Below the pieces are notes generated by a model, which saw only the letters and a program-made list of their open reading frames with translations, had not been told where the DNA came from and made no database searches. The translations under genes and the position numbers were made by a program. 39,999 nt of DNA, from positions 1 through 39,999 of the forward strand of contig NZ_JAFYYT010000017.1 of NCBI RefSeq assembly GCF_017549005.1, in the 5' to 3' direction. The stretch comes from Ruminococcus sp. Lineage in GTDB: Bacteria; Bacillota; Clostridia; Oscillospirales; Ruminococcaceae. Below are positions 18,358 to 34,018 of the stretch, in pieces. Position 1 is the first letter of the stretch, and every line of letters starts with the position of its first letter.

Positions 18358-18391
18358 ATATACAGTGAGAAACACAAAGGAGGATACAAAT

Positions 18392-19342
18392 ATGGAGAAC
18401 ACAGTTGTAAAGATACAGGACCTTGTAAAACGCTACGGCGATCTTATCGCTCTCGACCATTTCAGCCTTGAAATAAAGGAGGGTGAGATATTCGGACTTC
18501 TCGGTCCTAACGGCTCGGGAAAGACCACTACCATAAACTGTCTGCTGTCGCTGCTTTCCTTTGACAAGGGCAGGATAGAGATATTCGGCAAGGAAATGAC
18601 TCCCGTGAGCTACGATATCAAAAAGGACATAGGCATTATCATGCAGAACGTGGCGGTTTTCGACGAACTTACGGTATATGAGAATATCGACTACTTCTGC
18701 GGACTTTATATCAAGGACAAAAACAAGCGTAAGAAATGCATTGACGACGCTGTTAAATTCGTCGGACTTGAGGACTTTGTGAAGTTCTATCCGAAAAAGC
18801 TGTCGGGAGGACTTCTCCGCAGACTGAATATCGCCTGCGGCATAGCTCACAAGCCTAAGCTCATAATCCTTGACGAGCCTACTGTGGCAGTCGATCCGCA
18901 GAGCCGCAACCGCATACTCGAGGGCATACAGGAGCTCAACAAAAACGGCGCTACCATCATATATACCTCCCACTATATGGAGGAGGTAGAACAGATATGC
19001 ACCCGTATCTCTATCATGGACAAAGGAAAAAAGGTGGCTGAGGGCACTAAGGACGAGCTCAAGCGCATGATAAAGAATACAGAGACTATCATCATCGAGC
19101 TGCTGGAGCTTCCTGACAAGGCATACAGGGAGATAGCTTCACTGCCTCATGTATACGATTCAAAGTTCGAGAACGGAAAGCTTTCCGTATACTGCTCGGG
19201 CGGCAAGCACAACCTCACAAGAGTGCTTGAGGTATTGCAGAAGAACGAGCTGGGCTTTGGAAGAGTATACACGGAGCTTCCTACGCTCAACGATGTGTTC
19301 CTTGAAATCACAGGTACGGCACTAAGGGACAAGGAGGACTGA
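18392..19342 (+). CDS. ABC-2 type exporter, ATP-binding protein
   Basis: This 316-residue ATPase drives the two permeases that follow. Walker A is GPNGSGKTT (about 41-49), the Q-loop is IGIIMQNVAVF, the signature is KLSGGLLRRLNIACGI (LSGGL in place of LSGGQ), Walker B is LIILDEPTVAVDPQSR and the switch His is in YTSHYMEE. The C-terminal extension of about 90 residues is typical of the drug/lipid exporter DrrA/CcmA group. The ATG at 18392 has AAAGGAGG nine bases upstream; a GTG nine codons earlier starts before that site. An ATPase with two ABC-2 permeases recalls the LnrLMN linearmycin exporter of Bacillus. Confidence 0.92.
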   Translation: MENTVVKIQDLVKRYGDLIALDHFSLEIKEGEIFGLLGPNGSGKTTTINCLLSLLSFDKGRIEIFGKEMTPVSYDIKKDIGIIMQNVAVFDELTVYENIDYFCGLYIKDKNKRKKCIDDAVKFVGLEDFVKFYPKKLSGGLLRRLNIACGIAHKPKLIILDEPTVAVDPQSRNRILEGIQELNKNGATIIYTSHYMEEVEQICTRISIMDKGKKVAEGTKDELKRMIKNTETIIIELLELPDKAYREIASLPHVYDSKFENGKLSVYCSGGKHNLTRVLEVLQKNELGFGRVYTELPTLNDVFLEITGTALRDKED

Positions 19343-19344
19343 AT

Positions 19345-20478
19345 ATGTTCATGCATATATTGAAATATGAGCTGAAAAGCGGTCTCCGCAGCAAGGATAT
19401 GCTTATATGGCTCATACTTTTCCCCATACTTCTCGGTACTGTTTTCAAGGTGGGCTTCGGAAGCATTTACGAAAAGACCGAGAAATTCAATTCCATTCCG
19501 ATCGCTGTAGTGGAGGAGAGCGAAAACAAGGCTTTCCGACAGGTGATCGAAAATATCGGGAGCGCTGAGCAGCCCTTTATTACAGCCAGCTTTACAGATA
19601 GGGAAAAGGCTGAGAAGCTCCTTGATGACGGAGAAATAGAGGGTATCATCTTCTCGGGAGAGAAGCTCAGACTGACAGTCAAGGAAAAGGGGCTCCGCGA
19701 GACAATGCTCAAATCCTTTGTGGAGCAGTACTCCGTCCGCGAGAAGATAGCTATGGACGCTTTTGAAACAGCTCCCGAAAAGGCTCAGCAGGTAATTGAA
19801 TCACTGACAGCGGAGACAGTTTCTTCATGCAGGGAGATACCGGTCACACAGGGAAATCCCGACGTTTATGTTCAGTATTTCTACAACCTTATCGCTATGG
19901 TGGCGATGTTCGGCTGTATTACAGGCATGACAATTACCTCACACAGACAGGCTGACCTTTCGGCTCTCGGTGCAAGGAGCTGCTGTTCGCCGGTGCCTAA
20001 GTCTGTAAGCGTTCTTGCAAGTCTTGCAAGCAGCTTCTTATTGCAGACGGTCTGCATGATAATATGCGTAACATTCCTTGCGTTCGTACTGAAAGTGGAC
20101 TTCGGCGACAGACTTTGGCTGGTATATCCTACAGCAATATTCGGCAGTATCCTGGGAGTTTCCTTCGGTTTCTTCATAGGCTCTATCGCAAGGGTGAACG
20201 AAAAGGTAAAGACGGCGATACTTATGACCACAACAATGCTGCTGTGCTTCTTCAGCGGCCTTATGGTGGGCAATATGAAGGCTGTGGTAGCTGAAAAGGC
20301 TCCGTGGTTCAACAATATCAACCCCGTTGCGGTAATATCGGACTGCTTCTACTGCCTCAACATATACGAGGACTATGACCGCTACTTCACAAAGCTAATA
20401 ACCATGGCGGTCACAATAGTGATATTCATAACCCTTGGCATTATTTCTTCAAGGAGGAAAAAATATGCAAGTATTTAA
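19345..20478 (+). CDS. ABC-2 type exporter, permease 1
   Basis: The protein has 377 residues. One N-terminal helix (about 17-37, DMLIWLILFPILLGTVFKVGF) is followed by an extracytoplasmic domain to about 175, then five helices in the C-terminal half (from YFYNLIAMVAMFGCITGM to TMAVTIVIFITLGIISS). This is the standard ABC-2/YhgE-like exporter fold. It starts two bases after the ATPase stop, and GGAGG lies inside the end of the ATPase gene. It should form a heterodimer with the next gene product. The substrate is unknown; amphipathic antibiotics or lipids are typical. Confidence 0.88.
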   Translation: MFMHILKYELKSGLRSKDMLIWLILFPILLGTVFKVGFGSIYEKTEKFNSIPIAVVEESENKAFRQVIENIGSAEQPFITASFTDREKAEKLLDDGEIEGIIFSGEKLRLTVKEKGLRETMLKSFVEQYSVREKIAMDAFETAPEKAQQVIESLTAETVSSCREIPVTQGNPDVYVQYFYNLIAMVAMFGCITGMTITSHRQADLSALGARSCCSPVPKSVSVLASLASSFLLQTVCMIICVTFLAFVLKVDFGDRLWLVYPTAIFGSILGVSFGFFIGSIARVNEKVKTAILMTTTMLLCFFSGLMVGNMKAVVAEKAPWFNNINPVAVISDCFYCLNIYEDYDRYFTKLITMAVTIVIFITLGIISSRRKKYASI

Positions 20479-21652
20479 GGCAATGCTCAGGATAATCAGA
20501 AAAAGGCTGCCCTCTGCCATGATATATATAGTAGTCTTTGTGGTGATCTCTATCCTTGTTACAAATGCTTCCACCAAGGATAATAAGTTTGAGGTGACGA
20601 AGCTGGATATATGCGTGTTCGACGAGGACGATACTCCCGAGAGCCGCGCACTTACCGATTTTATCGGAAAAATCAATGATATAGCTGAAATAGAAAATAA
20701 CAGGGACGTCATAATCGACAGTCTCTACTACAAGCGTGTGAACTATGCTCTTATCATCAATAAAGGCTATGCTGAGAAGCTGGCGGCGGGGGAAACAGCC
20801 GACCTCTTCGGAAGCTACCACCTCGACGAGAGCTACTCCGTAGTGTATATGGGGCAGTTCCTTGATGAGTACATCACCTCGGTAACGGCTTACCTCACTA
20901 TGGGCAAGCCCATTGACGAGGCGATAAGCTGCACAGAGGAGACTCTGTCCCAGCATACAGACGTTGATATGCTGAGAGTGGACAAGGGCGGAAATTCACA
21001 CTACAGCGTGGACTTCGCAGGCTACTTCCAGTATATGCCATACATACTCATTGCGGCTATATTCACCGTTATATGCCAGGTGCTTGTGACTATGAATAAG
21101 AAGGATATCCGCTACCGCACCAACTGCTCCTGCATGGACAGCTCAAAGTACACATTCCAGCTTATTATCGGCAGCGGCTTGTTCGTGATAGCAGTATGGT
21201 TCATGCTAGTGATTATAGGAGCTGTGCTCAACGGGGAAATGTACATGGGAAGAGCATGGTATGCGGTCATCAACAGCTTCATATTCTCAGTAGTGGTAAC
21301 GGCTATGGCAGTATTCGTATCAAGCTTCGAGCCAAAGGAAAACGTGCTGAATATTATCACACAGGTGCTCAGTATCGGTATGAGCTTCCTCTGCGGAATA
21401 TTTATCCCGATGGAGGTACTCAGCGACGGAGTCCTTTCAGCAGCAAGATTCCTGCCTGCATACTGGTACGTGAGGGCTAACAATATGATCGCGGATATTA
21501 CACCTTTCAGCTTCAATGAGGTAGTTCAGTGCTATCTCATACAGCTTGGCTTTGCAGTAGCTCTGATACTTCTTACGCTGCTTGTACGCAAAGTCAAATA
21601 CAACAGCGCAGCTATAAGCACAAATGTGAAGAAAGCTGTAGTAAGCGATTGA
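20465..21652 (+). CDS. ABC-2 type exporter, permease 2
   Basis: This 395-residue protein has the same fold as permease 1: an N-terminal helix (about 16-34, AMIYIVVFVVISILVTN), a polar external domain to about 185, and five or six helices from YFQYMPYILIAAIFTVICQV to the C terminus. The stretch FLCGIFIPMEVL in the third C-terminal helix is the usual ABC-2 motif. The ATG at 20465 follows AAGGAGG and overlaps permease 1 by 14 bp, so the two are co-translated. A strong terminator follows the stop. Confidence 0.88.
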   Translation: MQVFKAMLRIIRKRLPSAMIYIVVFVVISILVTNASTKDNKFEVTKLDICVFDEDDTPESRALTDFIGKINDIAEIENNRDVIIDSLYYKRVNYALIINKGYAEKLAAGETADLFGSYHLDESYSVVYMGQFLDEYITSVTAYLTMGKPIDEAISCTEETLSQHTDVDMLRVDKGGNSHYSVDFAGYFQYMPYILIAAIFTVICQVLVTMNKKDIRYRTNCSCMDSSKYTFQLIIGSGLFVIAVWFMLVIIGAVLNGEMYMGRAWYAVINSFIFSVVVTAMAVFVSSFEPKENVLNIITQVLSIGMSFLCGIFIPMEVLSDGVLSAARFLPAYWYVRANNMIADITPFSFNEVVQCYLIQLGFAVALILLTLLVRKVKYNSAAISTNVKKAVVSD

Positions 21653-22661: not shown

Positions 22662-22697
22662 AAAAAGCTCTTCATCGCTGAATGAAGAGCTTTTTTG
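22662..22697. terminator. Bidirectional terminator at the end of the biosynthetic operon
   Basis: AAAAAGCTCTTCAT and ATGAAGAGCTTTTT form a 14-bp stem around CGCTGA. It lies between the convergent secreted-protein gene and the thioesterase gene, with T runs on both strands. Confidence 0.88.
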
Positions 22698-22732: not shown

Positions 22733-23428
22733 TCATATATGCAGTTTTTCTTTGATAATGCCGCAGACCTCTTCCTTGTGCTGCTGATAGTAGAAGTGGC
22801 CGCCGTCAAAGGGATATACCTTGCAGCTGCCGTCGGTGAAGCGGCTCCAGCTGCTCATATCCACGCTCTGCATGAGGGGGTCGTCCTTGCCGTATATCAC
22901 TGTGATATCGCAGCCGAACTTTACGTCTTCGGGTGTGGCTTTGTAGCGCTCTGCCATACGCACATCGGTGCAGAGTATGCGGTTGAGAGTACGCATGAGC
23001 TCCTCATCGGGTACGGGAGCTGCCGTGGAAAGCGAATTCTTCGTGAAGTAGGAAACTATTTCCTCATCGGAGGCTGTTTCCACGTTCTCGAAGCAGTGTA
23101 CGTCCTCGTCGGGGGGATTCTTGCCCGAAAGGAATACGTGACAGGGGAGGGCAAGTCCCTTTTCCCTTGCCTGCTTTACAAGCTCGGTAACGAGGACTGT
23201 TCCCATGCTGTGCCCGAAAAGCGCATATTCTCCTCTGAGAAGCTCTGAGTGCTTTTCTATGAGGTCGGCAACGCAGTCATGTACATTATCGAGGAGGGGC
23301 TCTGAAGAGCGCGTAAAGCGCCCTGAGAGCTCCATAGGAACTACGCTGAGTTCCTTAGGCAGGAAGCGCTTGAAGGAGCTGTAGCTCTTTGCAGAGCCTC
23401 CTGCGTGGGGAAGAAAGAAAAGTACCAT
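22733..23428 (-). CDS. Type II thioesterase of the biosynthetic operon
   Basis: This 231-residue alpha/beta hydrolase resembles the editing thioesterases of polyketide and non-ribosomal peptide pathways. Typical motifs are FFLPHAGGSAKSY at the N terminus, the nucleophile S74 in FGHSMG, the catalytic Asp in IYGKDDPL and the His in GGHFYY. It would remove stalled or wrong acyl groups from carrier proteins, or release the product. It is the last gene of the operon and starts one base after the stop of the small carrier protein, which is its likely partner. The length is normal for the family. Confidence 0.92.
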   Translation of the reverse strand: MVLFFLPHAGGSAKSYSSFKRFLPKELSVVPMELSGRFTRSSEPLLDNVHDCVADLIEKHSELLRGEYALFGHSMGTVLVTELVKQAREKGLALPCHVFLSGKNPPDEDVHCFENVETASDEEIVSYFTKNSLSTAAPVPDEELMRTLNRILCTDVRMAERYKATPEDVKFGCDITVIYGKDDPLMQSVDMSSWSRFTDGSCKVYPFDGGHFYYQQHKEEVCGIIKEKLHI

Positions 23429-23429
23429 A

Positions 23430-23681
23430 TCAGTCCTCTAAAGGTGTGCCCTTTTCGTTGAGGAGGTCGAATATCTCGCCTACCTTGCTGATGGAAGCTA
23501 CCAGCGAAAGGGGAATGTTGAGCCTGAATGTCTCTGTTATCTCTGAGCCGAGGCCGAAAAGTCCAAGTGAATCGAGGAAAAGATCGTCGTAAACGTCTGT
23601 CTCTCTTGTTATCTCTGAAGCGTCAACTCCCACATAGTCGGAAATTGCCTGCTTGAATTCATCAAAATTAAGGTTATTCAT
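23430..23681 (-). CDS. Acyl carrier protein (second copy)
   Basis: This 83-residue carrier protein has the phosphopantetheine site S38 in DDLFLDSLGLFGLGSEI and a four-helix layout. It starts inside the stop codon of the AMP-ligase (TAATG overlap), so the ligase probably loads this carrier. The sequence differs strongly from the first carrier at 31404-31706, which implies separate partners for starter loading and for chain extension. Confidence 0.92.
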   Translation of the reverse strand: MNNLNFDEFKQAISDYVGVDASEITRETDVYDDLFLDSLGLFGLGSEITETFRLNIPLSLVASISKVGEIFDLLNEKGTPLED

Positions 23682-25240
23682 TATTTATACTCCTTCTTTC
23701 TCAGGTATTTGAACTGTATCTTGCCGATATCCTTTGGTATCTCCTCAACGAGAACTACCTTGTCGGGTACCTTGTATGCCGAGAGCTTGCCGTCAAAGTA
23801 ACGTGCCAGCTCGCCGCGTGTTACCTTTTCGTCGCCCTTTGGCTGTATGTAAGCAACTATCTGCTGACCGATAACGGGGTGCGGTTCGTCGGTAACTGCC
23901 GCAGCAGCTATCTTCGGGTGAGTGAGGAGGCATGCCTCGACTTCCTCAGCGTGAACGAGGTTTCCGCCGCGCTTGATGATACGCTTGCTTCTGCCTGCGA
24001 AACGAACGATACCGTCAGGGAGCTTGTTTACAAGGTCGCCTGTGCAGAACCAGCGGCGTCCCTGCTCGTCTGTGAGTATCTTCTCGGCTGAGAGTTCGGG
24101 GTTGCCGAAATAGTCTGTGATAACGCCGTCTGTGTATACGCAGAGCTCGCCAACCTCGCCCTCGGGAACATCATTGTGCTTCTCGTCGATAACGCGGACG
24201 TCTGTGAAGCTGAGCTTGCGGAAATCGCTGGGGTCTGTGCCTGCGTCGCGGTCAGAGTCCCATACTACCATAGTACAGGTCTCGGAAGAGCCGATAACGT
24301 TGATAACGCGGATATGGAGCTTCTCAACGAAGATGTCTGCTATCTCCTTGGGGAGAACTTCTCCTGCAAAGTAGCAGATGCGGACGCTTGAAAGGTCGTA
24401 CTTGTCAAAATCGGGAGTTGAGAGAAGCACCTTTGCAAGTGTGGAAGTGAGCTGGATAACGTTTATCCTGTACTTCTGAACAGTCTCGAGGAAGGTGACA
24501 GGGTTGAACTGCGGCTGATACATTACCGTACCGCCCTTGAGCACCATCTGCTGACCCATTCCGAAGCCGCCCTGATGATAGAGAGTCATGCCGAGCATCA
24601 TTACGTCGTCAGCCCTGAATCCGAGGTAGTCGCCCATGTCCTTCTGTGTGGAGAGGAATCCGCCCGAAGGAACGGAGAGTATCTTGGGAGTGCCCGTGCT
24701 GCCCGATGTGCAGGCGAGGGACATTGTGTGGAGATAAGAAGGCTCGTATATCTCGCACTCCTTGCTGCCGTACTCAGCCATGAACTTCTCGGCGGAGATG
24801 TAGCAGCTGTCCTGCGGGATAACGCTGTCGTCAGCGAAGCATATTACCTTGCCGAGAGCTATCTGTGAAGGTACGAGCTCGCTTACAGCAGCGATTATGT
24901 TGTTGTTCCTGTACTTTTCCGTTACGAACATTATCTTTGATGTTGTAGCGGGAATGAGCTTTGAAAGCTCGAAGGATCCGCTCTGCGGATCCATCGGAAC
25001 AGGCTGTGCGCCTATTCTTACTGCCGACCAGTAAACAAGGTACCACTCAATGCTGTTAGGCATACATATGCCTACCTTGTCGTTTGCAGCTATGCCCTGC
25101 TTCTTCATTGCAGAGCCGAGAATGGCGGTCTTTTCCATGAACTGAGCGTATGTGAGCTCGTTCTCGTCGATCCTCAGGAGCACCTTGTCAGGTGTTTCCT
25201 GAGCGTATTTGCCGTAGTAATCGAAAAATTTCTCTGACAT
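23681..25240 (-). CDS. AMP-dependent acyl/aryl-ACP ligase
   Basis: This enzyme of 519 residues activates a carboxylic acid as an acyl-AMP and passes it to a thiol. The P-loop is LACTSGSTGTPK, the aromatic-binding motif region is VIGSSET, the hinge motif is WFCTGDLVNKLPDG and the C-terminal catalytic Lys is in PKDIGKIQFKYL. These are the full ANL-family motifs. The neighbouring carrier protein suggests that it primes the pathway with a free acid. The acid cannot be read from the sequence. The ATG at 25240 has GGGGG eight bases upstream; a longer frame runs into the hydrolase gene and is rejected. One base separates it from the hydrolase stop. Confidence 0.92.
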   Translation of the reverse strand: MSEKFFDYYGKYAQETPDKVLLRIDENELTYAQFMEKTAILGSAMKKQGIAANDKVGICMPNSIEWYLVYWSAVRIGAQPVPMDPQSGSFELSKLIPATTSKIMFVTEKYRNNNIIAAVSELVPSQIALGKVICFADDSVIPQDSCYISAEKFMAEYGSKECEIYEPSYLHTMSLACTSGSTGTPKILSVPSGGFLSTQKDMGDYLGFRADDVMMLGMTLYHQGGFGMGQQMVLKGGTVMYQPQFNPVTFLETVQKYRINVIQLTSTLAKVLLSTPDFDKYDLSSVRICYFAGEVLPKEIADIFVEKLHIRVINVIGSSETCTMVVWDSDRDAGTDPSDFRKLSFTDVRVIDEKHNDVPEGEVGELCVYTDGVITDYFGNPELSAEKILTDEQGRRWFCTGDLVNKLPDGIVRFAGRSKRIIKRGGNLVHAEEVEACLLTHPKIAAAAVTDEPHPVIGQQIVAYIQPKGDEKVTRGELARYFDGKLSAYKVPDKVVLVEEIPKDIGKIQFKYLRKKEYK

Positions 25241-25241
25241 T

Positions 25242-26363
25242 TTATTTTCCCCCATTAAGTCTTGCAGCAAGGAAGTCTGCTGCAATATGCTTTACCCAGT
25301 GGTACTGTTCACCAACGGGCATTGCGTGCATTATAGTTTCCTCCGATACATATGCAGGCTTGTCCTCGATGTGAATGCACTCCTTGTAGCCCTTTGCCTT
25401 GTCGAGGAGCTTCTGTGAAGCTTCGGGAGTCATCCAGTTGTCGTCGCTGCTGTATACCATGAGGAAGTCTGCCTTGTGTGTGCCCTCTTCAAGAGCTCTC
25501 ATACCCTCAAGGTAATCGTCGCTGTACTGGTATGAGCTCCACTTGCCGCGCTTCATCCATACAGGGATGCTGTTCTGGTCGGCAAAGTTCATGAGGAGCG
25601 GGAAGAGGCTTACGCAGGCCTTTGCCTTCGGGTTTTTTACTGTAGCGCGGAAAGCGTAGCCGCCGCCCATGCAGAGACCGAAGTTTGCCATGTTCTTTTC
25701 GTTGAGCTTCTTGTGGTTCTTGATGAACTTTGTGATACCGTCAAATGCAGCTTCTATCTGCTTGCCGCCGCACTTGATATTGTTGTGGATTATAGCAGCT
25801 CCTGCGCCGGGCATATCGGGTGTGATAACTGCGATACCTCTTTCGTTGAGGGGAGCAGCCAGCATTTCAAGCTCCTCCTTGCAGCTTCCGATACCTGAGT
25901 AGGTAACTACTACGGGGTAGTCTGTCTTTCTTCCCGAATCGGGATAGTGGATATAAGCAGGTATCTTTCCTGCCTTTGTGTCTATTTCAACGTACTCTAC
26001 CTTGTTTTTGCAGAGCTTTATGTAGTGCTTGTAGCTTTCCTCGAGACCCTTGTATATCTCGGTCTTGTGCTCAACGTCCTCGATGTTTACCATAAAGCAG
26101 GCATAGTGGCACTGTGTCACCATTCTTGCGTACTCTCTTGCGGATATCTTGTTGCCGGCCTTTTCAGCCTTTTCGCAGAGCTCGGAATAGCGGTCTATCT
26201 TGGCGTGCCATTCCTCGAGCCATACGTTCTGTATCTGCTTGCCGCTCTTTACTTTTATGTTGTCTATCTTCTTGAGGATAGCCTCAAGGTCGAAGGGGTC
26301 GGCTCCGTAGAGGAGCGAACGTGTTGCTACAGGATTAAGCAGGTCTCTTATTGCCCATTTCAT
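25242..26363 (-). CDS. Alpha/beta hydrolase with Cys nucleophile (dienelactone-hydrolase-like)
   Basis: This 373-residue enzyme has a helical N-terminal part (about 1-120) and an alpha/beta hydrolase domain. The nucleophile elbow is FGLCMGGGYAF with C231 in place of the usual Ser, as in dienelactone hydrolases (GxCxGG). The acid is probably D307 or D308 in VYSSDDNWMTP, and the His is one of those in MHAMPVGEQYHW. The N-terminal extension recalls the FrsA or pseudooxynicotine-hydrolase type. In this operon it could cleave, lactonise or transfer a polyketide intermediate. The ATG at 26363 is preceded by AAAGGAAA. It lies 22 bp after the tautomerase gene. Confidence 0.8.
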   Translation of the reverse strand: MKWAIRDLLNPVATRSLLYGADPFDLEAILKKIDNIKVKSGKQIQNVWLEEWHAKIDRYSELCEKAEKAGNKISAREYARMVTQCHYACFMVNIEDVEHKTEIYKGLEESYKHYIKLCKNKVEYVEIDTKAGKIPAYIHYPDSGRKTDYPVVVTYSGIGSCKEELEMLAAPLNERGIAVITPDMPGAGAAIIHNNIKCGGKQIEAAFDGITKFIKNHKKLNEKNMANFGLCMGGGYAFRATVKNPKAKACVSLFPLLMNFADQNSIPVWMKRGKWSSYQYSDDYLEGMRALEEGTHKADFLMVYSSDDNWMTPEASQKLLDKAKGYKECIHIEDKPAYVSEETIMHAMPVGEQYHWVKHIAADFLAARLNGGK

Positions 26364-26385
26364 ATTTATCGTTTCCTTTCTTTCG

Positions 26386-26742
26386 TCAGCCTGTGTACTT
26401 CCATGCGCCCTCGCGCGTCATCTCCGTGAACTGCATATATATGCGGTAGGGGTCGACGTGAGTGTGCTTCTGTATGAGGCTCAGCATTCTGTCTGCGAGT
26501 TCCTTGAGGAAAGCTGCCTTGTTGTCAGCGTATTCCTGCGGGAGTATGTATCTGAACTCCGCAAAGAACACAGTGTCCTCGGAGCTGTTCATGTACATGG
26601 GACACTCGTCCAGCATTACCATTATTGCAGGCAGGGGCTTTCTGAGTATCTCTGAGAGCTCGCTTGCAGCCTCGTCGAGGAAGCCGGTGCGGAGGGCAGG
26701 TGAGCTGAATTTGAAATTGGTCTTCATCTGTGCTATCGGCAT
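26386..26742 (-). CDS. MIF/4-oxalocrotonate-tautomerase family protein
   Basis: This 118-residue protein begins MPIAQMKTN, so Pro is the first residue after Met removal, the catalytic base of the tautomerase superfamily. The C-terminal half, THVDPYRIYMQFTEMTREGAW, matches the macrophage migration inhibitory factor pattern (xxRxYIxFxDxxxxxW). The length fits MIF-type members (about 115), not the short 4-OT type (about 60). In this pathway it could isomerise keto/enol forms or shift a double bond. A MIF-type enzyme inside a carrier-protein operon is unusual. It lies 32 bp after the ketosynthase gene. Confidence 0.82.
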   Translation of the reverse strand: MPIAQMKTNFKFSSPALRTGFLDEAASELSEILRKPLPAIMVMLDECPMYMNSSEDTVFFAEFRYILPQEYADNKAAFLKELADRMLSLIQKHTHVDPYRIYMQFTEMTREGAWKYTG

Positions 26743-26774
26743 ATCATTTATCCTTTCTGTCTTGCTTTACTGTC

Positions 26775-27986
26775 TCAGCCCTCGTATCTCCTGAGAACGA
26801 GAGTTGCATTGTGTCCGCCGAAGCCGAATGAGTTTGAGATAGCAACGTCTACCTTGTGCTCCTGAGGCTTGTTCGGGACGTAGTTGAGGTCGAGCTCGGG
26901 GTCTGCCTCGTCATAGTGGATAGTAGGAGGTACTATGCCTGTTTCGATAGCCTTGATACAAGCGATAGCCTCAAGAGCTCCGCCTGCGCCGAGGGTGTGA
27001 CCGATAGAAGCTTTTACCGATGATACGGGGATATCGTATGCTCTTGCGCCGAATACGTCCTTGATAGCCTTTGTTTCATAGAGGTCGTTGAGACCTGTTG
27101 ATGTGCCGTGAGCGTTTATGTAGTCAACGGAATCAGGTGAAAGGCCTGCGTTGTCGAGAGCAAGTCTCATGGACTCTGCCATGCCTACGCCGTCTGTCTT
27201 GGGAGCTGTAAGGTTGAATGCCTCGCCGCACATTGCAGCGCCTGCGAGCTCACAGTATATCTTGGCTCCTCTTGCCTTTGCGGACTCCTCGGACTCGAGA
27301 ACGACAGTACCGCCGCCCTCGCCCATGATGAAGCCGTCACGGTTCTTTGTGAAAGGACGTGAAGCTGTATTCGGGTCGGGATTTACGGACATCGCAAGGA
27401 GCTGATTGAAGCCGCTTATAACGAGATGTGTGACTGTATTGGAGATGCCGCCTGCGACTACCATATCGCAGAGACCAGATTCGATGAACTGCTTGCCCAG
27501 TGTGATAGCGTATGCCGATGAAGCGCAGGCTGTGCTGACATTGAAAGCAGGACCTGTGAAGCCGTACTTGATAGATACCAGTGCAGGCAGCTCGTTGGGC
27601 ATTTTCTTGAGTGTTATGTTAAGGGGCTTATCGAGCTCATAGTCCTCGTAGGAATTGTCGATAACGCCGTAGATGACGCCGACTCTCTTTCCGTCGTAGG
27701 TCGTAATGTCGATACCGCAGTCTGCGATAGCCTCACCTGCGGAGGCAAGTCCCATTCTTGTGGTGGTGGTGGTAGCGTTCAGCTGACGCTTTTTCCAGTA
27801 TTTTCCTGCCTCTGCCTCGAAGCCGTCATCAACTTCGGCAGCAACAGTGGTGTCGTGTCCGTCAAGGGGGATACGTGTGATGGTCCTCATTCCGCATTTT
27901 CCGGCGATGAGACCTTCCCAGTAATCGTGAGCGTTGAATCCTACAGATGTAACGGCTCCGATACCTGTGATAACTACTTTTTTCAT
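26775..27986 (-). CDS. Beta-ketoacyl-ACP synthase (FabF type)
   Basis: This 403-residue condensing enzyme joins an acyl chain to malonyl-ACP with loss of CO2. The catalytic set is complete: C154 in NVSTACASSAYA, H293 in INAHGTSTGLND, K325 and H330 in SSVKASIGHTLGAGG, plus the C-terminal SNSFGFGGHNA. The Cys rules out the decarboxylase-only ketosynthases of beta-branching cassettes, which have Ser. There is no chain-length-factor partner, so it works alone, probably iteratively. The ATG at 27986 has GAGG upstream; a longer frame has no ribosome site. It is the only ketosynthase of the operon. Confidence 0.94.
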   Translation of the reverse strand: MKKVVITGIGAVTSVGFNAHDYWEGLIAGKCGMRTITRIPLDGHDTTVAAEVDDGFEAEAGKYWKKRQLNATTTTTRMGLASAGEAIADCGIDITTYDGKRVGVIYGVIDNSYEDYELDKPLNITLKKMPNELPALVSIKYGFTGPAFNVSTACASSAYAITLGKQFIESGLCDMVVAGGISNTVTHLVISGFNQLLAMSVNPDPNTASRPFTKNRDGFIMGEGGGTVVLESEESAKARGAKIYCELAGAAMCGEAFNLTAPKTDGVGMAESMRLALDNAGLSPDSVDYINAHGTSTGLNDLYETKAIKDVFGARAYDIPVSSVKASIGHTLGAGGALEAIACIKAIETGIVPPTIHYDEADPELDLNYVPNKPQEHKVDVAISNSFGFGGHNATLVLRRYEG

Positions 27987-28022
27987 ACTAATAACCTCAT
28001 ATCTCAAAATTTTACACAGGGA

Positions 28023-29144
28023 TCAGGCAAAGATCCTGTCCCATTCCGACTTGTCCTTATGAATGTATGAGCCGAAGCCCGTTTTGCTGTGCAGCTCGTC
28101 AAGTGCTGCGAAAATATCCTTTATGCCGAATTTCTCAATGTAAGCTGCAAGGGGCTCGGCAAGTCCGAGAGTGTCCTGTACAGCTTCAAGGAAAACGGCT
28201 CTGTCGCCGCTGTATTCGTCTGCGGCATTGACTGTTTCGTTGAGTATCAGTGCTGCCATATAAAGCGGAGCCTTGCTGCAGTCAGCGCCTGTTGCGCTCT
28301 CGCGCTCCGACATAAAGTCGAGGAATGTGAGAGTTTCCTTTGAGCAGCCCTCATTCAGCCAGCCGTTCATCTTCTCACAGCCGTAGCCGAGAAGTCCCTT
28401 ATTGCGCTCTATGCGGAAGTTATCGGGGCTTCCTGCCATAAGTCCGAGACCTACGCTGTCGAGGACATCAAATGGTCCTGCAACGGCGAAGAGCTCCTCG
28501 ACAGCCTTGCCTGTCTCAGCGACCGAAGCGCCGAAGCTCTCACGGAGATAAATGGCGTGTGAGACCATGCAGGCGAGTATCTGATTGAGGTAGATGTGGT
28601 ATTCGCCCTTGAAGACAACAGGCTTCTTGCCTGCCGCCGTTACGAGCTGTGCAGCCTTTTCCGCGTTGCTCTGTGAAGTTTCGGGGAGTATATTCAGCTC
28701 CACGAAGCCTGTGAGCTTTACGGGATAGAAGAAGTGAAGTCCGAAGCAGCGCTCCTTGTGAGGAATATCGCTGAATACGGACGCGATGTCCAGCGAAGAG
28801 GTATTCGTAAGGAGCAGACAGTCATCGGAAACTGCCTGTGCAGCCTTTGCGAAGAGTTCCTTCTTTGCAGCCATATTCTCGAAAACAGCTTCTATAACGA
28901 CGTCGCAGCCGCTGAGTGCGGAGGTGTCGTCAGTGAAGAGGAAGGAGTCCTTCTTGAACTCGTACTGCTCCTCAGTGAGCTTCTTTCTCTTGAGGCTCTT
29001 GCCGAGAGTTTTCAGAACGGCTTCCGTGTTCTCCTCAGCGCCGAAGAGGTCTATGACCACGAACTGCGCGTCGGGGAGCTTGTCAAAGAAGAGGGAAAAG
29101 ATGTCCTTTCCCATTTTGCCGTAGCCTACTATTCCTATTTTCAT
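28023..29144 (-). CDS. 3-hydroxyacyl-CoA dehydrogenase family protein
   Basis: This 373-residue NAD(P)-dependent enzyme reduces 3-ketoacyl or oxidises 3-hydroxyacyl thioesters. The Rossmann motif is KIGIVGYGKMG, with an acidic residue after the second strand (VVIDLFG), then EAVFENMAAK and the catalytic His in GLHFFYPV. The C-terminal helical domain (about 190-373) is longer than in the 280-residue Hbd type and may be duplicated, as in FadB. It takes the place of a FabG-type ketoreductase in this operon. The ATG at 29144 has GGAGG seven bases upstream; a GTG two codons earlier is a less good start. Two bases separate it from the upstream crotonase. Confidence 0.9.
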   Translation of the reverse strand: MKIGIVGYGKMGKDIFSLFFDKLPDAQFVVIDLFGAEENTEAVLKTLGKSLKRKKLTEEQYEFKKDSFLFTDDTSALSGCDVVIEAVFENMAAKKELFAKAAQAVSDDCLLLTNTSSLDIASVFSDIPHKERCFGLHFFYPVKLTGFVELNILPETSQSNAEKAAQLVTAAGKKPVVFKGEYHIYLNQILACMVSHAIYLRESFGASVAETGKAVEELFAVAGPFDVLDSVGLGLMAGSPDNFRIERNKGLLGYGCEKMNGWLNEGCSKETLTFLDFMSERESATGADCSKAPLYMAALILNETVNAADEYSGDRAVFLEAVQDTLGLAEPLAAYIEKFGIKDIFAALDELHSKTGFGSYIHKDKSEWDRIFA

Positions 29145-29146
29145 AT

Positions 29147-29851
29147 TCACGCCTCCTTGCTTTTTAAGTAGGAGCGCATGAACTCCTTATAGTCAGCAGG
29201 GGAGAAGTCCCTGCCGCAGCCTGAGATGTAGTCTATAACTGCCATAGCCTCGGGAAAGCCCTGCTTTTTGTCTGCGAAGATATCAGCCCAGCCGAGCTCG
29301 AAGGCTTCCTCTGCGGGTATGAGCTCGCCCGACATAACGAGCTTGTATGCGTTCTGCATACCGCATATCTCAATAGTCCTTGCAACTCCGCCGAGAGCGG
29401 GGAGTATGCCGAATGTGGATTCGGGCTGGCCTACTCTTGCGTTCTTCTCGATTATCCTGTAGTGGCTGTTAACAGCGATCTCGCTGCCCGAACCTATACA
29501 GAAACCCGTTACCACGCTGATGACGGGGAACGGGAGCTCTCTGAGAAATGTGAAGTAATGTTTTTGCTTGATGTGACCCTCGGGAAGTATCCCTTCGGCG
29601 TCGTTGTAGGATTCGTTTGCGGAGCGTTCTGCGAGAGCGTCAACGTCAGCGCCTACGCTGAAATGTCTGCCTGCACCCTTTATTACAAGACCTTTATACT
29701 TGTTTTTTGCGGCTCTTACCTCGATATCAGCCATAATGGCTTCGTATTCTTTTAAAAAGTCCGCGGTCATCAGATTGTTTCCCGGCATATTCATGGAAAG
29801 GACGAGGACTCCGTCCTGTTCCTCAAGGATCATTCCGTTATTATCATTCAT
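29147..29851 (-). CDS. Crotonase-family enoyl hydratase/isomerase (second copy)
   Basis: This 234-residue crotonase-fold protein has the oxyanion-hole segment GAGRHFSVGADVDAL and the second one, VVTGFCIGSGSEIAVNSHYRI, with VGQPESTFGILPALGG, where the catalytic Glu of hydratases would lie (PEST). Members add or remove water, isomerise double bonds, or decarboxylate. It shares the motifs of the copy at 30675 but differs strongly in sequence, so the two probably do different steps. It overlaps the small protein upstream by 8 bp. Confidence 0.9.
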   Translation of the reverse strand: MNDNNGMILEEQDGVLVLSMNMPGNNLMTADFLKEYEAIMADIEVRAAKNKYKGLVIKGAGRHFSVGADVDALAERSANESYNDAEGILPEGHIKQKHYFTFLRELPFPVISVVTGFCIGSGSEIAVNSHYRIIEKNARVGQPESTFGILPALGGVARTIEICGMQNAYKLVMSGELIPAEEAFELGWADIFADKKQGFPEAMAVIDYISGCGRDFSPADYKEFMRSYLKSKEA

Positions 29852-30281
29852 TGGAGTTACCTCCGTTCTTTTCTGCCATGAGGCGGTAGAAAGCTCTCGA
29901 CTCTATATCGAGCACCTCTGCCGCAGGAGCTTTTTTCGCTGCGATGAAGCAGGCGTTTATCTCCTGTATCTGCTTTTTTGTTTTGTCCTTGAAAAGCTTT
30001 TCAACGTATTCGTCAGCTTCTTCTGCCTTTATGAACATATCGGCTGCGTCAGCGAGTTCGCTGTCTGCGCTGTCGGAAACTACGGCTGACATGAAAGGCG
30101 CTTCCGAAAGAAATTTTCTTACGGCAGCCTTTTCGCTGTCATCTTTGCCAAGTATCGTACTGCTGTCGGTATGTATGAGCAGTAAGCAAGGCTCGCCGAG
30201 CTGCTCCTTGTTTTCAAGAAGCTGATACAGCGAGCTTAGTTGGCAAATAGTTGTTGTGATTTCTGTTTTATTGATCGTCAT
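29844..30281 (-). CDS. Small unknown protein, possibly a crotonase-fold remnant
   Basis: This 145-residue protein has no strong motif. The end (KKQIQEINACFIAAKKAPAA followed by EVLDIESRAFYRLMAEK) resembles the C-terminal trimerisation helices of crotonases. The part LLLIHTDSSTILGKDDSEKAAVRKFL lies where the oxyanion-hole segment would be, but the GG/GAD residues are missing. It may be a shortened, non-catalytic partner that assembles with one of the two real crotonases. The ATG at 30281 has GGGAG upstream and lies inside the thioesterase gene (14-bp overlap); a TTG five codons earlier is less likely. It overlaps the crotonase downstream by 8 bp. Confidence 0.65.
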   Translation of the reverse strand: MTINKTEITTTICQLSSLYQLLENKEQLGEPCLLLIHTDSSTILGKDDSEKAAVRKFLSEAPFMSAVVSDSADSELADAADMFIKAEEADEYVEKLFKDKTKKQIQEINACFIAAKKAPAAEVLDIESRAFYRLMAEKNGGNSNE

Positions 30282-30678
30282 TCTCTTCTCCCTCAAGATA
30301 AGCTCTTACTGCTTCGGGAATGTCGCATATCATGCGTTCCTTGTTGACAAAGGCAAGCTTGCCTTTGACCCTGCATGAAACAAGGCCTGTATTCTTGTTC
30401 ACAATTTTATGCCTGTAGCTGATTATACCGCACGAGCAGGAGATCTCAGTGTCTATCCTGACTTCGTCCAGCATTTTCAGCTCGTGTATGTACCTTTGAG
30501 TGCTTTCCATAATGACGGGGAAGAGCCCTGCGTCTATGATGAGATCGAGCAGCCCGTGGACCTTGAGAAAGTTCCACAGTGCCGTTTCTGAATACTGGAG
30601 ATACACTGCATTGTTGACATGACCGAACGAATCCAGTTCATATCCCCTTACTGTCAGTTCGTAAGAGCTTTTTTTCAT
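30268..30678 (-). CDS. Hotdog-fold acyl thioesterase (4HBT type)
   Basis: This 136-residue hotdog protein starts YELTVRGYELDSFGHVNNAVYLQYSE, which matches the 4-hydroxybenzoyl-CoA thioesterase motif with the catalytic Asp before GHVNN. The remaining parts (IESTQRYIHELKMLDEVRIDT and TGLVSCRVKGKLAFVN) are the central strands of the fold. It would hydrolyse an acyl-ACP or acyl-CoA, and so might release the product, while the type II thioesterase at 22733 would edit. It overlaps the first crotonase by 4 bp (ATGA). Confidence 0.88.
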   Translation of the reverse strand: MKKSSYELTVRGYELDSFGHVNNAVYLQYSETALWNFLKVHGLLDLIIDAGLFPVIMESTQRYIHELKMLDEVRIDTEISCSCGIISYRHKIVNKNTGLVSCRVKGKLAFVNKERMICDIPEAVRAYLEGEENDDQ

Positions 30679-31394
30679 TTTTTGAACGCCTCCGCCAGTG
30701 CCGATTCAAACTTGCCCTTTGAGGGATCCTCTGCCCCCTCGGAAGCAAGGTTGACGGTATCTATTATAGCGTGGATCTGTGTGAGCGATTTGCCGCTGAG
30801 AAGTTCCTTTACGAAAGCCATTGTCTCGTCAAAGGAGTTTTTGTTTTCGCTGAGCTTTGTAACGAGTCCCAGGTCGAGGGCGTCCTTAGCGCCTATCATT
30901 TCTCCGCAGAGTATCATGCGGAGAGCCTTCTCCTTGCCGAGCAGTCTGTAAAGACGCTCCATGCCGCCCATACCGGGGACAACTCCGTGCATAATCTCGG
31001 GAAGTCCGAGAAACGCGGAGGGAGAAGCGATCCTGAACTGACAGCTCAGTGCTATCTCAAGTCCGCCGCCGAAGCAGCCGCCGTTTATGGCAGCAGCGGT
31101 TATGATCGGGAGCTTTTCGATAGTACGAAGGAGCTCCCTTGCGTTTTCGAGCTTTGATGAAAGCTCGCTGCCGCCTGCCTCGCCGAACTTTGATACGTCG
31201 GCGCCGTGGGAGAAATGTCTGCCCTTGCCTGTAATGACAAGAGCTCCTACCTGTGGATTCTTGTCCAGCCAGCCGAGGAGCTCCTTACGGTCTATGAATT
31301 CGGGCTCGGAGAGAAGATTCTTCGGGCCGTTGTCAATGGTAAGTACAGCAATATTATCCTCGGCGTGAAGCTCAGATAAATTTGACTTTAACAT
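30675..31394 (-). CDS. Crotonase-family enoyl hydratase/isomerase (first copy)
   Basis: This 239-residue crotonase has the oxyanion-hole residues in ITGKGRHFSHGADVSKF and AINGGCFGGGLEIALSCQFRI, and FLGLPEIMHGVVPGMGGMERL at the active site. The PEI...GVVPG stretch is like hydratases with the acidic residue in the usual place. A likely role is dehydration of a 3-hydroxyacyl-ACP. It follows the first carrier protein by 9 bp with GAGG before the ATG. Confidence 0.9.
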   Translation of the reverse strand: MLKSNLSELHAEDNIAVLTIDNGPKNLLSEPEFIDRKELLGWLDKNPQVGALVITGKGRHFSHGADVSKFGEAGGSELSSKLENARELLRTIEKLPIITAAAINGGCFGGGLEIALSCQFRIASPSAFLGLPEIMHGVVPGMGGMERLYRLLGKEKALRMILCGEMIGAKDALDLGLVTKLSENKNSFDETMAFVKELLSGKSLTQIHAIIDTVNLASEGAEDPSKGKFESALAEAFKK

Positions 31395-31403
31395 TTTTGC
31401 CTC

Positions 31404-31706
31404 TTACTGGTTAACGATGTCGTTGCCGTACTGATATATCTTGCAGAACATCTCAACAACGTCGCTCATTGTCTCCATAGGAGCCTTGAGCATATACTTG
31501 CCGATGCTCTGGAGCTTGATATCGAGGTCGAACTTGTCAGCTGTCATCTCGATGAGCTCAACGAACATGAGTGAATCGCTTCCGAGATCCTCCTGAGGAT
31601 TTGTATCCATAGTGATCTCGTCCCTTTCAACTTCACACTCTTCTGCGTAGTAATCAAAGATCATGTCCTTGATTTCCTGTCTGATTTCTTCTGTGATCTC
31701 TCTCAT
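31404..31706 (-). CDS. Acyl carrier protein (first copy)
   Basis: This 100-residue carrier protein has the phosphopantetheine site S45 in EDLGSDSLMFVELIE, close to FAS-type ACPs. The ATG at 31706 has GGAGG nine bases upstream, in the 64-bp gap after the acyltransferase gene; the open frame extends further but without a ribosome site. It probably carries the malonyl unit loaded by the upstream acyltransferase and the growing chain. Confidence 0.93.
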   Translation of the reverse strand: MREITEEIRQEIKDMIFDYYAEECEVERDEITMDTNPQEDLGSDSLMFVELIEMTADKFDLDIKLQSIGKYMLKAPMETMSDVVEMFCKIYQYGNDIVNQ

Positions 31707-31770
31707 TTTTTTTACCTCCGAAATATTTTCTTTCCCCTTTTGGGTATACTTGAGATTTATATATGAAAAC

Positions 31771-32670
31771 TTACACATCCTCAAGGGTGTAAATTTTGCA
31801 TTTTCTGTTCACGCGGGAGAATTTGCTGACAGCGCCGTTTGCGCTGACGTCGAAGAACTCGGTGACTCCCAGTTCCTCAAGCTTCTGTATTGCAAGATCC
31901 CAGCGTATTGGAGTATACACGTTGAGCTGATTTTCCCTGAGTACCTGCTCTCCCTTTGTCATAACCTCCCTGTCGAAGATAGAGAGGATAGGATAATCGG
32001 GATCCTTATACTCTGTGGAAGCGCAGAAATCAACGTACTCCTGCGAATAGTCCTTCATTATCGGGTGATGATAAGCGACGCCCGTACCGAAGCTGAAAGC
32101 TTTCAGTGCGCCCTCGTTCTGGCAGAGGGTGAGGGCTTTCTCGACCGAGTCTGCCTTACCGCTGACCATAACGTGGAATTTCGAGTTGCCGCTTCCGATG
32201 ACTATCTCATCGGATGAGAACTTATCCCTGAACATTTCCTCGATATCGCTGTATGAGAAGCCTATTACCACGCCCATGTCGAGCTTCTGGTCGTGCTCCT
32301 CGAGGCAGCGCATTGTAGCGCGGTTCATCATGATGATACCGTGAGCAAATTCATGGCTGACAGAGCCGAAACAGCTGCTTATGCTGACTATTCCCGAGCT
32401 GTAGCCTGCGCCGATATCGGGGATTATTCCCTTGCTTATGTAGTATTCAAAGACCACCCTGTCGCATATCAGAGAGATTATCCACTCTGCTACGCGGCCG
32501 TCGTATGCCTTGTTCTTTTCAAGATCCTTGTTCAGCCCGAGTCTGCCGAATGCTTCATCGAGATAAAACTCATACTTGTCCATCAGTTCAGGCGGCAGCT
32601 TGACAAGAAGCTTTTCAGGCTTCGAGCCGATGCCGTTGAAAAGAAACGCTCTGTTGTACATTTTTTTCAT
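31771..32670 (-). CDS. Malonyl-type acyltransferase (FabD/trans-AT-like)
   Basis: This 299-residue acyltransferase loads an extender unit from CoA to the carrier protein. The N-terminal FLFNGIGS stands for the usual FPGQG. The nucleophile is S91 in GAGYSSGIVS, where the common GHSxG has become GYSSG. R117 sits in MMNRATM, and H201 or H202 in VAYHHPIM is the catalytic His (usually xxFHS). The changes are compatible with activity but point to a divergent branch. It is the first gene of the operon, about 17 nt after the predicted transcript start. An alternative ATG three codons downstream (32661) has better spacing to GGGGAG, so the start may be 32661. Confidence 0.88.
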   Translation of the reverse strand: MKKMYNRAFLFNGIGSKPEKLLVKLPPELMDKYEFYLDEAFGRLGLNKDLEKNKAYDGRVAEWIISLICDRVVFEYYISKGIIPDIGAGYSSGIVSISSCFGSVSHEFAHGIIMMNRATMRCLEEHDQKLDMGVVIGFSYSDIEEMFRDKFSSDEIVIGSGNSKFHVMVSGKADSVEKALTLCQNEGALKAFSFGTGVAYHHPIMKDYSQEYVDFCASTEYKDPDYPILSIFDREVMTKGEQVLRENQLNVYTPIRWDLAIQKLEELGVTEFFDVSANGAVSKFSRVNRKCKIYTLEDV

Positions 32671-32693: not shown

Positions 32694-32722
32694 ATCTTAA
32701 CACCTATTCTGCACACTGTCAA
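32694..32722 (-). promoter_or_regulatory. Sigma-A promoter of the biosynthetic operon
   Basis: On the minus strand TTGACA (32722-32717) and TAAGAT (32699-32694) are 17 bp apart, giving a start near 32687. I see no other strong promoter within the operon, whose genes overlap or lie less than 65 bp apart, so one transcript of about 10 kb is likely. Confidence 0.75.
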
Positions 32723-32908
32723 GAGAAAAAACGGCTCTAAAAAGCGATTTTTAGAAAAGCAATAAAAAAGTGTCGAGTCCACAACAGATTTTTATAAAAT
32801 AGGATAATTATACTATCTGTAATTTGTTAACTAGTGATTAATAAGGCTGAATTTTTATATTAAAATCATGATTTTGGAATGGCACTTTTAAGCATTTTTA
32901 ATACCGTG

Positions 32909-33353: not shown

Positions 33354-33971
33354 TTACTTTTCGGGATTTTTTATAAGCTTTGCTTTGAAAAGTGCTGTTC
33401 CCACAGCACCTGTGATGATCGTGCATACTATCATTTCAACAAGCGCGTTTACGCCTACGAAACTGATGATGAAGGGGATAACGCTCTTGCCTTTCATAAG
33501 TCCCTGAACGTACTCGGTTTTTCCGAAGAGGAATACGAGCGACAGCATAAAGAAAGCTGTGTTCATAAGGGCTGTAAAGAAACCTGTAATGAAACAAGAG
33601 ATACGTGCGTCTGTAAGCTTTGAAGCTCCCTGGAAGATGAGACCTGCAAGGAAACCGTCAAGCAGACGAGGTATGAAGCGCTGTATGAATGCAAAAAACG
33701 GATTGATCTCTACAAGTACCGCTCCCATACCGCTCGGAATACCGATACCGAAGCACTGCAGGAAGCTGAATATACCAAAGACACCGCCGATGATCGCGCC
33801 CCCGACAGGGCCCAGCGAGATCGCTGCTATGGCGATAGGGATGATGTTCAGCGTTATTACCAGCGGACCTACGGGAATAGAACCGATCGGCGTAAACGAG
33901 AACACGGCTATGACCGCAGTCAGCAAGCCGAGCAATACCATGCTTTTGACGTCGAACTTAAAACTTTTCAT
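33354..33971 (-). CDS. ECF transporter substrate-binding (S) component, PanT-like
   Basis: This 205-residue membrane protein has six predicted helices. The beginning (MVLLGLLTAVIAVFSFTPIG), then VGPLVITLNIIPIAIAAISLGPVGGAIIGGVFGIFSFL and the FFAFIQRFIPRLLDGFLAGL segment match the S components of energy-coupling-factor vitamin uptake systems, closest by eye to PanT (pantothenate) or related folate/riboflavin-type members. It needs the shared EcfA/A'/T module encoded elsewhere. The ATG at 33971 has AAGGAGG about ten bases upstream. It lies next to an operon with two phosphopantetheine-dependent carrier proteins, which fits pantothenate as substrate, but this is inference. Confidence 0.8.
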   Translation of the reverse strand: MKSFKFDVKSMVLLGLLTAVIAVFSFTPIGSIPVGPLVITLNIIPIAIAAISLGPVGGAIIGGVFGIFSFLQCFGIGIPSGMGAVLVEINPFFAFIQRFIPRLLDGFLAGLIFQGASKLTDARISCFITGFFTALMNTAFFMLSLVFLFGKTEYVQGLMKGKSVIPFIISFVGVNALVEMIVCTIITGAVGTALFKAKLIKNPEK

Positions 33972-34018
33972 TTTCAAATTTCCTCCTTGTTACTATTCCT
34001 CTTGTGAGGATATAATAC

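Follow-up and report, generated by a model that had tools for sequence, protein, structure and literature searches.

A 39,999-nt stretch of DNA from Ruminococcus sp. (RefSeq assembly GCF_017549005.1, contig NZ_JAFYYT010000017.1, positions 1 to 39,999; hereafter, the window) carries 13 open reading frames (ORFs) on its minus strand at 22733-32670, which probably encode a dedicated iterative synthase of discrete subunits (type II-like) for an unsaturated acyl product. The source bacterium degrades cellulose in the gut. The operon is real and well conserved, has an unusual core, and is regarded as a variant of the carrier-protein synthases; its genes are arranged in the order acyltransferase (AT), acyl carrier protein 1 (ACP1), crotonase ECH1, hotdog thioesterase (HOT), crotonase-like small protein (SML), crotonase ECH2, L-3-hydroxyacyl dehydrogenase (HCDH), ketosynthase (KS), MIF-type tautomerase (MIF), alpha/beta hydrolase (ABH), AMP-forming acyl ligase, ACP2, and type II thioesterase. 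A preliminary description of this DNA had placed 13 minus-strand genes in this interval and had read them as a mixture of fatty-acid-synthase and beta-oxidation parts in which FabG, FabZ, and an enoyl reductase are missing. All the ORFs were found there, and domain scans bore out the mixture: Pfam and NCBIfam backed both ACPs, both crotonases, the hotdog thioesterase, the 3HCDH N-domain, the FabF-like KS, the alpha/beta hydrolase, the AMP ligase, and the type II thioesterase, and these scans detected no FabG, FabZ, or enoyl reductase among the 13 proteins.

The KS (26775-27986, minus strand, as for all operon genes below) was FabF-like by Pfam, and its Cys-His-His set (C154, H293, and H330), described beforehand as intact, was unchanged in each of the 13 sequences aligned. 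It scored above the cut-off of one NCBI FabF-type subfamily (429.9 vs 387) but below that of the FabF equivalog (438 vs 494), and it showed 40% identity to the FabF of the same genome. That genome, a draft that is 94% complete, holds two KS genes, in open frames of 415 and 442 amino acids, and no third. The second KS, FabF, lies on contig C41 together with FabD-, FabK-, FabG-, AccB-, and FabZ-like genes, of which only FabF was matched by search and the others were named by reading their sequences. A tree was computed from 75 KS rows, 67 of which are different. With a support of 100/100, it set 41 rows from the operon and four from other Clostridia apart from 26 clostridial and four more distant KS; the latter two groups, which were not annotated singly, include the FabF of the window's genome. 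The fatty-acid genes sit together on another contig, and the operon KS branches apart from the FabF side of the tree; a role as the housekeeping fatty-acid set is therefore rejected. Compared with type II fatty-acid synthase (FabF/FabG/FabZ/FabK), the operon shares a FabF-like KS, an ACP, and AT ancestry, whereas FabG and FabZ are replaced by an L-3-hydroxyacyl dehydrogenase and crotonases, an enoyl reductase is lacking, and the KS belongs to a separate clade. Among 125 genomes of the genus, exactly one KS was counted in 62 of the 74 without ABH and exactly two in 33 of the 51 with ABH. Large PKS clusters also occur in Ruminococcus: contig 14 of one genome (G093) and contig 3 of another (G144) each hold at least 19 KS domains, mostly in large frames.

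A scan of named records with HCDH, which reaches close relatives only, yielded 30 loci. All 13 genes were complete, in the same order and on the same strand, in 20 of them, which is more than chance would give. Eight named isolates, all R. flavefaciens, are within these 20 (ND2009, YL228, SAb67, YAD2003, Y1, ATCC 19208, 007c, and MA2007); the operon of ATCC 19208, which we take to be the same strain as DSM 25089 although a search of papers did not confirm it, is locus L031. Among the other ten loci, L048 has a divergent small protein, seven (L021, L035, L036, L038, L040, L043, and L049) are truncated at a contig or locus boundary, L033 is likewise truncated and carries SML and ECH2 in a decayed form (L033:9510-10001) with the rest of the operon kept, and L050 is unrelated. 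L005 (genome G006, identical KS) also lacks ECH2. The genes overlap or are separated by at most 72 nt in the complete loci, with the exception of KS and MIF, which are up to 245 nt apart. The flanking ORFs, read without a domain scan at nine loci, vary between lineages, and the 13 genes therefore look like a self-contained unit. Long open frames in three genomes (G012, G020, and G130) hinted at an ABH-ligase fusion; this reading was dropped because the stretch in G012 holds two separate genes.

The distribution is patchy. ABH was present in 51 of the 125 genomes of the genus, in which the drafts are fragmentary (G022, for example, has HCDH and no ABH match), and in none of 393 other genomes drawn from the order. 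When HCDH was compared with a plasmid collection, the ten best rows were haloarchaeal with 24-26% identity, and all 793 matched records were below 60%. Dockerin counts did not separate carriers of the operon from non-carriers, dockerins being present in 60 of 60 genomes among the matches listed. This patchiness speaks against an accessory membrane-lipid operon, which would supply an unusual fatty acyl chain to R. flavefaciens lipids through a parallel fatty-acid route, as do the lack of an enoyl reductase and a tail (MIF, AntI-fold hydrolase, and a ligase with its own ACP) that suits specialised metabolism. Such a role would be compatible with the FabF-like KS, ACP, AT, and hotdog thioesterase, and with the flanks of the nine loci, in which no constant exporter was seen. 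We consider the membrane-lipid role unlikely.

The proposed reactions, their iteration, and the identity of the product are inferred from the genes, their order and conservation, the kept and lost catalytic residues, the KS clade, and the hydrolase fold. KS would condense extender units onto an acyl starter, with ACP1 (31404-31706) as the carrier. This core ACP was identified with Pfam and shows 46-59% identity to the ACPs of four clostridial relatives. HCDH (28023-29144; Pfam and alignment), in which S116, H137, E149, and N187 are invariant and the C-terminus is longer than in two generic HCDHs, would reduce each 3-keto group through the L-3-hydroxyacyl stereochemistry of beta-oxidation, so that enzymes of the fat-burning type would run backwards. 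Subsequent dehydration would be performed by ECH1 (30675-31394) and ECH2 (29147-29851), both of which were assigned with Pfam and retain both catalytic Glu residues in the alignment. ECH2 would be partnered by the non-catalytic SML (29844-30281; 144 amino acids), which had no Pfam or NCBIfam match and is fused to ECH2 in three relatives. The earlier view of SML as crotonase-like was partly upheld: it is predicted to fold as a crotonase from which an internal segment has been deleted, and in the alignment the catalytic core is lost. Because the operon has no enoyl reductase, the double bonds would be retained and conjugation could accumulate. HOT (30268-30678), a 4HBT-type protein that matches thioesterase models of Pfam and NCBIfam and has invariant D16, H20, and N22 in the alignment (n = 10), would release or edit the ACP1 chains. 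The product is most likely an unsaturated acyl compound and is probably coloured.

The same enzymes could be read in the opposite direction. Pathways of acyl degradation typically contain HCDH, crotonases, a ligase, and thioesterases, and among solved structures and NCBIfam models HCDH and ECH came closest to enzymes of the butyrate or beta-oxidation pathways. The operon might therefore be a degradative or salvage module for an aromatic or branched acid of plant origin, in which KS would serve as a decarboxylase or replace a thiolase. We regard this as improbable in view of the two carrier proteins, the intact Cys-His-His set of KS, the absence of thiolase and acyl-CoA dehydrogenase among the 13 proteins, and the joint retention of ACP1 and KS across a wider clostridial family described below.

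The first gene of the operon (31771-32670) encodes a divergent FabD-like AT according to domain scans and alignment. Its single-sequence scores were weak (30 bits against the Pfam cut-off of 32.7; 82.5 against 260.9 for the fabD model), and its catalytic Ser88 and His198 were invariant (n = 13). The Arg of FabD-type transacylases binds malonate. At the Arg column of the genome's own FabD, all four aligned operon ATs had N or H, followed by R, L, R, and K, respectively, and a one-residue shift of the alignment would restore the Arg in two of the four, including the AT of the window. The preliminary description had named a malonyl-type acyltransferase; its acyltransferase part stands with the kept Ser and His, whereas malonyl specificity is only one possibility in view of this alignment. 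The extender units may be supplied by the fatty-acid FabD, or the operon AT may move another acyl group.

The tail of the operon could add a second acid to the chain. The AMP ligase (23681-25240; Pfam and NCBIfam) would put a second carboxylic acid on the adjoining ACP2 (23430-23681), and the type II thioesterase (22733-23428) would edit the ACPs; domain scans identified the latter two and agreed with the ligase and thioesterase named beforehand. The MIF/tautomerase-superfamily protein (26386-26742), with an invariant catalytic-type Pro2, may act as a tautomerase on a keto acid or keto intermediate. Its single-sequence Pfam score was 18.5 against a cut-off of 22, and a profile of 13 orthologues reached solved MIF structures with an E value of 3.7e-7, which strengthens its naming as a MIF-type tautomerase. 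ABH (25242-26363), previously called a Cys-nucleophile hydrolase, showed in alignment and structure comparison a two-domain fold with a helical N-domain and an alpha/beta-hydrolase C-domain, as in the AntI/Ayg1/DHPON-hydrolase/FrsA group. Its Cys231 was invariant in 13 of 13 sequences and aligned with the nucleophile Ser of AntI, which is consistent with that name. Its fold relatives, at 13-19% identity, are AntI of Photorhabdus anthraquinone formation, Ayg1p/Wdyg1p of DHN-melanin formation, DHPON hydrolase, FrsA, and AbyA5. The invariant Cys lies in GLCMGG, whereas AntI and Ayg1p have a Ser in GXSXG, as described in the available excerpt of PMC11165489. ABH, as a Cys variant, may work in the manner of AntI/Ayg1-type enzymes, and it would join, trim, or cyclise the product and then release it.

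This tail also permits a shorter route, in which ligase, ACP2, MIF, and ABH would form a small cyclic or branched acid and KS, HCDH, and ECH would act only once or twice, the product being a colourless signal or lipid modifier. The operon has a single KS and no second KS of the chain-length-factor type, its two thioesterases and two-domain hydrolase would permit early release, and no constant transporter, regulator, or oxidase was seen in the flanking ORFs as read at nine loci. Related cores in larger clostridial clusters argue for a longer product, since the glycosyltransferases and the condensation-domain protein of one of them (L083, below) suit a longer scaffold. We prefer the iterative synthase and give the short-chain pathway a modest chance.

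A KS of 51-55% identity was found in four of 290 other Clostridia genomes, within related clusters at L083:1870-10416, L084:9119-17495, L085:9388-17094, and L086:9062-18433. In the first three, the order is ACP1, ECH1, HOT, a degenerate crotonase-type protein, ECH2, a KASIII-like protein, a B12/radical-SAM-type protein, HCDH, and KS, with an extra small protein between ECH1 and HOT in L083 and L084. ACP1, ECH1, the hotdog thioesterase, ECH2, and KS (51-54% identity) occur in all four clusters and HCDH (32% identity) in three; L086 is rearranged and had no HCDH in the stretch fetched. The degenerate crotonase was recognised by weak similarity in L083 (E 1e-6) and L084 (6e-4) and by position alone in L085, where an AT homologue of 24% identity was also found. 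L083, the only cluster scanned with Pfam, additionally encodes glycosyltransferases, a flavodoxin, a PPTase, and a condensation-domain protein; the KASIII-like and B12 radical-SAM-type proteins of L084 and L085 were called by the start of their sequences. These two proteins distinguish L083-L085 from the operon, and its tail is in turn unmatched, since MIF, ABH, the AMP ligase, and the type II thioesterase had no match in the 19.9-kb stretches of L083-L086. The relative order of the core genes is shared by the operon and L083-L085, and KS ancestry is common to the operon and all four clusters. L083-L086 probably belong to a larger natural-product family. In two host families, 21 and 169 other genomes, respectively, yielded no further KS of the family at E 1e-118 or better. 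Among 398 genomes drawn across the phylum, the only other KS matches at E 1e-108 or better came from four genomes of one genus and fell on the FabF side of the tree. The KS core family is rare and sporadic across Clostridia.

The architecture of the operon was compared with those of described polyene systems. Aryl polyene and highly reducing type II PKS systems use a KS with a second KS of the chain-length-factor type, a FabG-type ketoreductase, and a hotdog dehydratase. In contrast, the operon has one KS with an intact Cys and no chain-length-factor partner (the other KS of the genome is in the fatty-acid locus), HCDH and crotonases, and a hotdog protein of the thioesterase type. It thus lacks an aryl-polyene-type architecture, in agreement with the preliminary description, in which the operon was not recognised as an aryl polyene, type II aromatic PKS, or ladderane system. 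Celluxanthene, the yellow affinity substance of Acetivibrio thermocellus, was reported by Ishida et al. in 2025 (PMC12144888), and the cex/faf (celluxanthene/flavoaffinin) clusters occur in this species and its relatives according to the excerpts available of that report and of PMC11839114. As far as the excerpt of PMC12144888 goes, the cex cluster resembles the operon in belonging to an anaerobic cellulose degrader and in having an AMP ligase, a separate ACP, and an alpha/beta hydrolase beside a chain-building synthase; CexD and CexE are likened to the operon ligase and ABH by their description, not by sequence. The polyene is proposed there to be joined to indole-3-pyruvyl-ACP, a route that the ligase-ACP2-MIF set could, by analogy, parallel. 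However, the cex cluster relies on CexF, a single iterative PKS of type I, together with two KASIII proteins, whereas the operon consists of discrete proteins with HCDH/crotonase reduction and dehydration. No type I multidomain PKS was found in the window's genome, both KS genes being in the 415- and 442-amino-acid frames, and no KASIII was found among the 13 proteins, in which the sole ACP_syn_III match was a weak one to the operon KS. The same excerpt reports neither a cex-like cluster nor celluxanthene in R. flavefaciens DSM 25089. A celluxanthene-type cluster was ruled out by this absence and by the architecture. No described pathway matching the operon was found in the open-licence PMC papers searched. 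The operon may be among the 6,906 biosynthetic clusters predicted in the Hungate1000 paper and tabulated in its supplement of 2018.

A single transcript had been assumed for the operon, and the tight spacing, a conserved putative promoter, and a terminator-like hairpin are consistent with this at the level of sequence. A sigma-70-type promoter match (TTGACA-17-TAAGAT; 32694-32722, minus strand) precedes AT, and a terminator-like hairpin of 15 pairs (22662-22695, minus strand), which also scores on the plus strand, follows the operon. Both are consensus matches, and the scanned region had 22 promoter-like sites against 8.8 expected and 18 terminator-like sites against 10.1 expected. Alignment of 14 upstream regions (the window and 13 of the 27 AT-holding loci from the 30-locus set) indicated that TTGACA is invariant in all 14 and that the -10 element is TAAGAT or TAATAT in 12. 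Most of these regions also keep, at 32760-32800 and thus upstream of the promoter, an AT-rich block (GTATAAT then TTTATAAAA), which is a possible regulatory site. Further upstream, an ECF-transporter substrate-specific component is encoded at 33354-33977, with homologues upstream in many, though not all, of the fetched loci. An ABC ATPase and two ABC-2 permease genes (18365-21652) are convergent to the operon; the first permease adjoins 16 of the 30 loci and was not found in L039, L041, L043, and L045-L048. An Rfam scan of the window detected only 23S/5S rRNA and tRNAs, at its start.

Apart from the fatty-acid locus, the window's genome has no KS system other than this operon, which is complete in the eight named R. 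flavefaciens isolates, and the old question of the yellow pigment of this species therefore becomes testable. To our knowledge, no genes have been assigned to this pigment, because the celluxanthene cluster and compound were not found in DSM 25089. In a bold reading that is less likely than not, the operon would make the yellow cellulose-associated pigment from which the species takes its name and would resemble the celluxanthene system by convergence: a conjugated chain assembled on ACP1 by the beta-oxidation-type discrete synthase would be combined with a ligase-activated, perhaps aryl-keto, acid on ACP2, and the head group would be closed by the Cys-variant AntI-fold enzyme. A review (PMC8865330) singles out a yellow pigment as peculiar to R. 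flavefaciens, unpigmented strains being probably closer to R. albus. Plasmid pRUMAL01 of R. albus matched the 125 genomes of the genus only weakly and over short stretches. A carotenoid origin of the pigment was not supported, since no SQS_PSY head-to-head prenyl synthase was found in 60 genomes of the genus, including that of the window, in a search whose control was positive in seven of 14 named genomes. Two observations weigh against the pigment assignment. One genome (G018) has the same operon KS sequence as ATCC 19208 and, in addition, a third KS. As read from BLAST hits and ORFs, this KS belongs to a PKS/NRPS-like locus (L093:503-15491) that also encodes a separate HCDH and AT as well as acyl-CoA-dehydrogenase-like and flavoprotein-like proteins, and the operon is accordingly not the sole pigment candidate there. 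In addition, isolates of both R. flavefaciens and R. albus are yellow on cellulose according to the excerpt of PMC11055587. The link to the pigment is therefore a candidate and not a finding.

If the proposed synthase is correct, a KS wired to an L-3-hydroxyacyl dehydrogenase and crotonases, with a non-catalytic crotonase partner, would constitute an unusual route to unsaturated chains. Should the pigment assignment also hold, the core would represent a new class of polyketide/polyene synthase, sporadic across Clostridia. Independently of the pigment, a related core recurs in unrelated Clostridia.

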